Positions 148 through 50,312 of a DNA stretch of 64,000 nt are shown one piece after another (the stretch's first letter is position 1; each line of letters opens with the position of its first letter). The position numbers and the translations under genes were made by a program. The stretch lies in NCBI GenBank assembly GCA_026419785.1, contig JAODTK010002121.1:1-64000 (forward strand), written 5' to 3'. Source of the stretch: Sclerodactyla briareus. Taxonomy: Eukaryota; Echinodermata; Holothuroidea; Dendrochirotida; Sclerodactylidae. The notes beneath the pieces are model-generated. The model was given only the letters and a program-made list of their open reading frames with translations. It ran no database searches and was not told the DNA's origin.

Positions 148-18588
<18,441 letters not shown>

Positions 18589-26020: not shown

Positions 26021-26028
26021 ACAGCATA

Positions 26029-27052
26029 TTAGCCGCGTTTTCCATGCCGCGGGCCGGGCCGGGCGGGCGTCTAAAAGCGCTCATCGTTATTTTCAATGGA
26101 GCCGTTTCCATGCACGCGGACGGGCGGGCGGGCGGCGGGCGGGCGGCGGGCGGGCGGCGGGCGGGCGTTTTCGCGAAATCGGTCAGTGTAGCGCTTTTTT
26201 CCGCGTGGCCGCGTGGTATTTCGCAATCAATTCCGGGATTTCCCTGCAATAACGGCTTGAGCCGATAATGAGAGTAGAGGGCAGTTTTAGGTTCAAATAA
26301 TGTTCCAACAAAATTCATAAATGTTCAACACTAGGGATGAGTTTTAGATTGTGTCTATTTCAACGGCTCGTCACCTTTTGACACATGTACATGTTAAACC
26401 GATGATATTGTCAAGTATTTGCTAATTAAATATCCAAAAACCTGTCAAATTGTGAAGTTTTAATGGTGGGCCGAACGCGTTGACATCAGAACAATGGTTT
26501 TCAGAAATGAACACCGGTGTTTAGGTTTTAAACACTAGGATGCGTCCGGTTGTTTGACAACAACGTCAACGACAACAACGACAATGACAACAATGACAAC
26601 AACGACAAACGACGACAACGACGACAACGACGACAACGACAACAAAACGGCAAACAACAACAACAACAACAACAACAACGGCAACGACAAGGACAACGAC
26701 AACACAACAACAAAACAACAATAATAATAAAACAATAATAAACATTAAATAATACATTAATAATACACAATAATAACAATAATACCAATAATAACACTAA
26801 TAATATAAAAACAATATTAATATAGTAAGGTACAATCGGTTCTTATATAGCGGCATATACACCTTAAGTGGAGAGAGGTGCGTGATTCGAGAAAACGGCC
26901 CGCCCGCCCCCCGCCGTGCATGGAAACGAGTCTTCCAAACGCCCGCCCGCCCGCCCGCGTGCATGGAAACGAGTCTTCCAAACGCCCGCCCGCCCGCCCG
27001 CCCGCCCGCCCGCCCGCCCGCCCGCCCGCCCGCGTGCATGGAAACGCAGCTT
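26029..27052. mobile_element. 1-kb element with GC-rich inverted arms and a CAAC-repeat core
   Basis: The outer ends are inverted copies: AGCCGCGTTTTCCATGCCGC (26029) against GCGTGCATGGAAACGCAGCT (ending 27052). Inside the left arm are GGGC/GGC runs to about 26170, closing with GCGTTTTCGCG. The right arm opens with CGAGAAAACGGCCCGCCCG (26887) and CCCG runs, with three copies of GTGCATGGAAAC at about 26915, 26959 and 27033. The core from 26550 to 26800 is built of GACAAC and AAC units that grade into AATA units. No transposase is visible. Nearby TTA trinucleotides at both edges would fit a PIF/Harbinger-type duplication, but this is weak. Confidence 0.6.
26555..26810. repeat. CAAC/GACAAC microsatellite grading into AATA
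   Basis: Repeated acaacgac, caacaacaac and aataataat units fill this stretch. Long open frames on both strands here are only Val/Leu/Cys or Asn/Asp/Gln runs, produced by the repeat. It forms the core of the inverted-arm element. Confidence 0.9.
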
Positions 27053-27169
27053 TAGTCATACCAAATAATTGCATCTGGAGCTGCACTGGGTGTACAGCTA
27101 GTACATCAATGGGTGAAGGGAGTGGGGGAAATAAGGGGGTTGCTAGGAGAATTCAGGAAATTTCACTTT

Positions 27170-28320: not shown

Positions 28321-29654
28321 TGTTTGATGACATTCCTATGAGTCATAACTATACCGAATGTCAGCACGATGCACGCAAAAGTCGAAGAGGAAAGCATTTG
28401 CATAACTATACCCTTGTGGGGGCCGCTGGCTAAATCTGGGTCCTATCTCTGGGCAACTTGACGAAAACGACTGGAAACGAAAATAAGATTATCCCCTTGA
28501 AGAAAGTATCTCACCAGTTGAAAAAAAAGACTATCGACCGATTACTAATAGTGGTCATTATGGAATATTTTGAAAAGTTAGTCGTCTTCATGCTGAAGTT
28601 CATAAATAGTATTCCATATTAGAGAAGTACATTGCATACCGCAGTGAAAGATCAACTGTAGATGCTTGTTTGTTGGTTATAGACAGTGCTCGCCAAGTAA
28701 GTGGGACACTATGATAATATGCAGAGTTTGCTTCGTAGTCTCCGCTCTGCATTCAGTACTATGACAACTCCAAAACCACTTTACTGCCCATCGTGAATCA
28801 GCAACATCACATCACGGCTCTACACTTCTCTATGACAGAAAATCAATAGTACTACTTCGTTTCACGATAGGTCTAAACCAAAGGACATATGTTGACTTTC
28901 GCCTATGCAGATGCATGATCCTCATATAGTCAAAACGCTGTCAGGTTTGTGAAAGCATCACGAATTGAAGTAGTATTTGGGACTTGTTTTTACCATAACT
29001 TGGGGACTCTCATATATTCACACTTTCTAAAGCCAAAGCAGAGAGGATTGTACTGTAGTTATAGGCGGGGGAGGGGGGGGGGGGGGGGGGGTTCGGCCTA
29101 TAATTGATGGAAACAACTATGATTGTCGTTCAAATGGTTCTTTCTCTTTTGTAATTGTGCTCCTGTGTAGCTCTCGTCGTGTTTCACACTCAACACAGTG
29201 TAAGTAAACAGACACTCAGGAAAGTTTATTCTATAGAGGTCGGCATATGAAGAAGGGTTTCACATCACGCAAGGGGTATTTTAGCTGATCTGCCCATGAC
29301 CTTCACTCAGTATCATTTTCCCCTCGTGAGGTATTACTCTACTCGTATGTGTACTGATAACGTTTAGACATGTTTTTTCCAAGGAGTATGAAACATTTGA
29401 CTCGAACATAACTAGTAATTTCTTTTAGATAGTGATTGTATATTTTATGCTGCAGAATCCTTAGTATATCTTCATTTTCTGGATGATATCAATTAAATGT
29501 GTACACTTACTTTTTTACTTACTTAATTGTGTCAGTTGGTCGGACATTCATCACAGAATGTCTGTTTGCGGCAAAATGGCACTGTGCCACATGGATATAG
29601 TAATGAGTGACATGCAGATTCCGATAGCTCAACAGATAGCAGGTCCCACAGCTG

Positions 29655-29940
29655 CCCATTTCTAATCCAGCATGTTCGCCACCAGTGAGCCTGCTCGATG
29701 AATTCATGGCCCTATGATTGTTTTACAGGTCACACACGGACCAATTTCTAATCGTAACATGTTCGACCCCAGTAAGCCATGCTCTATGAATTCATACCCC
29801 ATATGATTGCTTTACAGGTACCACTGCCAATTTCTAGTCATGCTGTCCGATCCACAGAGCACTGCTCTATGAATTCATAGACCATATGATTGCTTTACAG
29901 GTTTCACTGCCAATTTTTAATACATGCATGATTCGATCCC
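29655..29940 (+). repeat. ~85-bp minisatellite, about 3.3 copies
   Basis: A unit containing caatttctaatc, tgctctatgaattcata and catatgattgctttacaggt repeats starting near 29657, 29737, 29826 and 29909. Copies differ at scattered sites. Each unit carries a pyrimidine-rich TTGCTTTACAG followed by GT or TT, which would look like a splice acceptor to gene finders. Confidence 0.8.
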
Positions 29941-44985: not shown

Positions 44986-45059
44986 TGTGAGCCTTATACA
45001 TACATGCGATTGATGCGCAGCAAATATTTGGGACACCCCCTGGTGGGGGTTGTACCATT

Positions 45060-45510
45060 ATATTACGATGTTGTTTATATTGTTTGTCATGAAGTGAAGG
45101 AAGAAAAAGCCGGGAAGAGAGAAAAGAAACAAATAAATGAAATGAAAAATAATGTTTGCAATATTCGTGAAAAAGAACTGGAGAGCCGACGAACCATTGC
45201 AAGACTCGAAAGGATCTTTATACCACGAAGGTGTCAAAACTGCCGGCAGACGGCCGGGATCAGCCAATCGTTGGGTCACAACGCTGGTGGTGGCGCATGG
45301 AAGCAGGTCATTTGCCAGGCGTTGCAGGCAGGCCGGGTGTTTAGTCATTACCTGGCTCTGTGCGCGTTTCCTCCAAACTCCTACTTTGTGTCTCTTATTG
45401 CTTGCAAAATGCATTGATGGGGAGTTCCCAGCAAGTCTTAGAACGCGACCATCAGTGTATCTTCCAAAAGTGGTCAAGCGAGCGAAGTAGCCGTTGAGTG
45501 AGCCGAGCAA
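45060..45510. other. Unexplained segment open on both strands
   Basis: The minus strand has a 150-codon frame and the plus strand 137- and 112-codon frames across the same bases. Composition is more GC-rich than the flanks between 45180 and 45480. No family was recognised. It is not a simple repeat; it may be part of an unrecognised transposon, a structured RNA or a real exon. Confidence 0.35.
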
Positions 45511-50175: not shown

Positions 50176-50312
50176 ATATATGATATATATATATATATAT
50201 TATATATATATATTATATATATATATTATATATTATATATATATATATAATATATATAAGATATAGATATATATAATCTATATTATATATATATATAATA
50301 TATATAATAGAT
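50176..50312. repeat. AT dinucleotide microsatellite
   Basis: About 135 bases of almost pure TA units with short breaks. It can fold on itself. Confidence 0.95.

Follow-up and report, generated by a model that had tools for sequence, protein, structure and literature searches.

The locus and its parts

The window, meaning the whole 64-kb stretch of DNA analysed here, carries at positions 26029-27052 a mirrored GC-rich locus in which inverted ends, GGGC runs, an inner GTTTTC/GAAAAC pair, a CAAC-rich core and a right arm with three GTGCATGGAAAC units are all present, as the original prediction had described them. The longest and best arm pair joins 26103-26135 to 27014-27046 (33 nt, complementarity 97%). 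Fitting to the ends of the family described below moved the bounds of the element from 26029-27052 to 26031-27051 (1021 bp, no strand assigned; an alignment of 36 copies gives a consensus of 926 bp); this copy is locus L001 on contig C1956. The right flank, at 27052-27054, reads TTA and represents one half of a target duplication, judging from the sequence and the fitted ends, and the left target-site remnant, at 26028-26031, reads either as ATT before AGCC or as TTA with the first base of the terminal inverted repeat (TIR) lost, by comparison with TTA-AGCC in other copies. Because its left side reads ATT-AGCC, or TTA-GCC minus one TIR base, the window copy taken alone lacks a clean duplication.

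On the plus strand, the left arm comprises an outer unit at 26031-26069, formed by AGCCGCGTTTTCCATGC and a GC-rich run (sequence, arm pairing), a linker at 26070-26102 that is unlike the right linker (sequence, 36-copy alignment), and an inner unit at 26103-26182, formed by CGTTTCCATGCACGC, a GGGC/GGC run and GTTTTCGCGAAATCGG (sequence, arm pairing, repeats). The arm is followed by an internal non-coding region common to the copies (26183-26556, alignment and divergence) and by a microsatellite core of variable length within the element, first CAA/CAAC and then AAT (26557-26822, repeats, alignment and end probes). On the minus strand, the right arm contains an inner unit at 26886-26929 (TTCGAGAAAACGG...GTGCATGGAAACG; sequence, arm pairing), an extra unit with its linker at 26930-26972, which is a 43-bp tandem duplication in the window copy (arm pairing, repeats), and, at 26973-27051, the right linker and the outer unit with a (CCCG)n run and the TIR GCATGGAAACGCAGCT (sequence, end counts). 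The only open reading frame of at least 150 aa in the window lies outside the element, at 45058-45510, and scans of the window with Rfam (gathering scores) and for tRNAs gave no match.

A dispersed family with common ends

The genome searched comprises 319.5 Mb in 3171 contigs. A search with the element returned at least 193 matches; since 40 of the 1467 first-look candidates were scored, the copy counts from this search are lower bounds. The family ends, AGCYGCGTTTCCATGC, were counted with patterns in which one base is Y (C or T): genome-wide, there are 61+83 exact matches to the 30-base end and 151+177 (328) to the 20-base end, with TWA (TTA or TAA) preceding 110+131 of the latter (241/328), while the control patterns read backwards gave 0 occurrences every time. 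All 20 of the exact ends that were probed enter the same non-coding family, one of them as a 72% relative. At L103, positions 69-700 belong to a diverged relative with the same outer end and 72-78% identity to the family interior in two main matches; its right end was not seen in the 2 kb read downstream, which holds 13 stop-to-stop frames of at least 60 aa.

The low-complexity arms could expand through slippage, which would suit an immobile locus: a palindrome of chance or structural origin, or GC-rich sequence duplicated locally. This explanation has practically no probability left in view of the copies on many contigs, their sharp ends, the target duplications and an empty site (see below); chance, specifically, is excluded because this architecture is found again at many loci. 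The window locus is one copy of a dispersed non-coding DNA transposon of about 0.93 kb, and the earlier proposal of a non-autonomous transposon with subterminal repeats is largely upheld by the dispersed copies, their common ends and the lack of any open reading frame of at least 150 aa in the element. An abundant repeat family is thereby annotated, and a striking mirrored GC-rich locus is explained as a mobile element.

Target-site duplication and empty site

The flanks were compared in 42 elements, namely 36 bounded copies (L001-L030, L057-L062) and six from end fragments. The three flanking bases are identical in 27 of them (18 TTA, 8 TAA, 1 TCA), whereas random re-pairing of the ends gave a mean of 16.3 identical pairs and reached the observed 27 in 1 of 20000 shuffles (p = 5e-5). 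TWA stands on both sides in 31 elements, and in 26 of these the two sides agree (Fisher p = 7e-4). The flanks were scored non-identical in 15/42 elements: L001, L006, L011, which another copy directly adjoins, L013, L016, L017, L018, L019, L020, L025, L026, L028, L058 and the copies on C2031 and C2821. Further analysis gave TAA on both sides of L026; the remaining cases may reflect decay or sequence error. On C2643, the abutting copies L024 and L027 have one TTA in common, as if the newer copy had used the flanking TWA of the older one.

Moreover, C is found directly outside TWA in 28 of 60 flanks (30 elements, both sides collapsed), compared with a background value of 0.21 (p = 7.8e-6, the best of ten positions tested), the other flank positions being weak (best p = 0.009). 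This excess indicates a preference for CTWAG targets (C-TWA-G), similar to the maize PIF site.

The flanks of L026 were joined with one of the two TAA copies left out. The listing of empty sites took in 25 of 30 copies, and the sequence compared with them was the window together with a set of collected loci. The joined flanks match the window from 2026 to 1576 on the minus strand with 394/472 identical positions and no gap at the junction, and 1576-2026 (minus strand) is an empty-site paralogue of the L026 insertion, that is, the same repeat without the element. The junction in this relative carries a single TAA where the insertion carries two; therefore, this insertion duplicated three bases. 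Multiple copies with a constant target duplication, the check that had been proposed for the locus, are thus provided by the 328 exact 20-base ends, the 27/42 identical flanks and the L026 empty site. As an observation on the window itself, 1576-2026 is a dispersed repeat related to the repeat that holds the L026 copy. A second candidate empty site, for L016 at window positions 10977-11209, gave a match of 69% only, with a junction that was not cleanly aligned, and is not counted.

Probable superfamily and possible mechanism

The family is a dispersed non-autonomous DNA transposon with terminal inverted repeats that most probably belongs to the PIF/Harbinger type, on account of the TWA duplication and the C-TWA-G preference; the GTT at TIR positions 7-9 may point the same way. 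In the text available from the cited papers, a TTA/TAA duplication (PMC2213677), a 3-bp duplication with an extended site preference (PMC2836001) and, for teleost elements, 3-bp duplications (PMC9179366) are attributed to PIF/Harbinger or Harbinger transposons, and the plant TIR motif G(N)5GTT is used as a search condition (PMC2213677, in the portion available). Against the assignment stand the first TIR base, which is A and not the G of plant TIRs, the 15/42 non-identical flanks, a left outer TIR that exceeds the interior in conservation by a small margin only, and the failure to find a transposase with the family ends.

The search for such a source covered the DDE_Tnp_4 profile, which gave 14 matches in the genome, and the surroundings of these matches in 12 stretches of 8-10 kb (about 5 kb on each side; the C204 and C2112 stretches begin at the contig start). 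Within the 12 stretches, the 13-base TIR core with one edit allowed accompanied none of the 14 matches. At four edits, the longer end motif produced five weak, unpaired matches spread over L050, L052, L053 and L056, with no pair enclosing a DDE_Tnp_4 match; inverted ends of any kind flanked by TWA gave six weak candidates in five of the transposase stretches; and blastn gave a 25-base match of one copy to L048 (E 0.007). Myb_DNA-bind_5 and Myb_DNA-bind_4 had two matches and one match, respectively, none of the three near family ends among the ends listed, each list giving the first 100 places. The Plant_tran search gave no match, and its controls were likewise silent. The expectation that the copies would reveal the transposase family was therefore borne out as far as PIF/Harbinger can be inferred, but its coding partner was not found; since the probed ends, too, all belong to the non-coding family, the source may be lost, diverged, hidden by a gap in the assembly or overlooked in a search made exon by exon.

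The same negative result near the 14 DDE_Tnp_4 matches, together with a left outside that often reads TTAA, would suit a non-autonomous transposon of another superfamily (piggyBac or Kolobok with TTAA, Tc1/mariner with TA, or a lesser-known 3-bp group) whose duplication merely looks Harbinger-like. This is unlikely, as the right ends read GGCT-TTA or GGCT-TAA, the agreement of the middle base in 26/31 elements is predicted by neither a TTAA nor a TA duplication, and the L026 empty site has one TAA. With regard to piggyBac, the domain has three matches, none near copies among those listed: the one on C2031 is about 550 kb and the one on C3088 about 49 kb away from such copies, and the third is on C2515, which has no copies among those listed. 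A piggyBac TTAA target duplication was rejected on the fitted ends, the paired flanks and the L026 empty site.

Under the PIF/Harbinger assignment, a Harbinger transposase and a Myb-like partner would act in trans on the element, recognising the TIR together with the subterminal GTTTCCATGCACGC repeats; the element would be cut out and then inserted at CTWAG-like sites, while the GGGC runs and the CAAC/AAT core would change length through slippage or gap repair. The GTTTCCATGCACGC units are natural candidates for the binding sites because, in the text available from PMC9710019, the Myb-like protein of the zebrafish Harbinger3_DR recognises a 9-bp subterminal motif.

Arm units, core and divergence

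In the consensus, AGCCGC is followed by GTTTCCATGCACGC(GGGC)n, a linker and a second GTTTCCATGCACGC(GGGC)n ending in GTTTTCTCGA, and the right side mirrors this order with another linker. The left arm has two units in 31/36 copies and one in 5; the right arm has two in 29/36, one in 4 and three in the two copies L001 and L018, and one further copy has no recognisable right unit. The core of the copies is a CAA-type and then an AAT-type repeat, and in four right-side reads among the 20 end probes (L092, L095, L097, L101) the CAAC part is absent and the AAT repeats lead to the interior. The CAAC/AAT core is part of the element and varies, and the suggestion that the locus is prone to expansion fits the length variation between copies. 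With their flanking duplications, these copies provide naturally occurring variants in arm units and microsatellite length, through which the evolution of subterminal binding sites and simple repeats inside transposons can be followed.

Divergence was measured over consensus positions 126-540 in the 35 of 36 copies with enough sequence. The interior has a mean Kimura distance of 0.067; per 100 bases, substitutions number 6.35 and indel events 2.45. Separately, transversions exceed transitions in 27 of the 35 copies (L001-L030, L057-L059, L061, L062), an odd excess that may stem from alignment or assembly error, and short indels are frequent.

The G-quadruplex-like tracts in both arms, as judged by motif counts, the sole measure applied to the suggested folding, are the family's most unusual trait: the motif is found in 33 left arms, 30 right arms and both arms of 27/36 copies, compared with 2.9% of trials with base-shuffled arms. 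As an addition to the PIF/Harbinger reading, the GGGC tracts might form G-quadruplexes active in the transposition or replication of the element, and the excess over shuffled arms would agree with such a role. The role is nonetheless improbable, as simple GGGC slippage explains the motif and the arm segments, with 4.0-6.6 substitutions per 100 bases against 6.35 in the interior, reveal no strong extra conservation in substitution rates; the left outer TIR has the lowest rate. A more elaborate proposal, rather improbable, is a Harbinger-like family in whose arms repeated binding sites for proteins are combined with G-quadruplex tracts; at both ends, these tracts are G-rich on the 5' strand. The quadruplexes would aid excision or copy gain, and the source transposase would be lost from the genome or unrecognisable.

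Relation to known elements

The family shares with Tourist-like MITEs a non-coding sequence, a common TIR and many copies. MITEs are usually under 500 bp, and the 36 copies measure 350-1035 bp (median 930.5), so the family is filed as a non-autonomous transposon and not as a strict MITE. MITEs with internal microsatellites or tandem repeats have reportedly been described by Coates (2011) and Hikosaka (2004); there, as here, the simple repeat inside the element spreads along with it, although the repeat unit differs.

In the text available from PMC2213677, the number of subterminal tandem repeats varies in the Medicago PIF/Harbinger subfamily MtPH-A6-4, which offers a close structural parallel. 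MtPH-A6-4 has 2-35 copies of a 60-bp unit (PMC2213677), whereas the unit of the GC-armed family is GTTTCCATGCACGC-(GGGC)n and each arm usually contains two; moreover, the TIR of the latter begins with A, and a coding relative was not found here. As far as the available part of PMC2836001 goes, the Tourist-like MITE mPing likewise has a 3-bp TAA/TTA duplication and an extended target preference, and it was moved in trans, as would be the case here. In contrast to mPing, the GC-armed family is larger (926-bp consensus), with long GC-rich arms and an internal microsatellite, and its source transposase was not found. The pineapple Ac-mMITEs, according to the available text of PMC8449440, are likewise non-coding and microsatellite-associated, with adjacent insertions; they are Mutator-related, insert into (TA)n and have 9/10-bp duplications, whereas the microsatellite of the GC-armed family is internal. 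Finally, the coral CMITE, in the portion of PMC2872659 available, is likewise a short non-coding family with tandem arrays of copies, but it is piggyBac-related, whereas the GC-armed family has a TWA duplication.

The literature search returned no title or abstract opening describing this GC-armed family, and in full-text literature the end letters occurred as lone 13-base terms, in papers whose titles concern muscle atrophy or a carbonic anhydrase and not transposons. Judged by these titles and abstract openings, the family is putatively new, and the kind of element is ordinary.

Other features of the window

Elsewhere in the window, an 83-bp unit is repeated in about 3.2 tandem copies at 29652-29921 (77% matches), a run of 26 C occupies 7519-7544, and a long (AT)n tract extends over 50176-50306.
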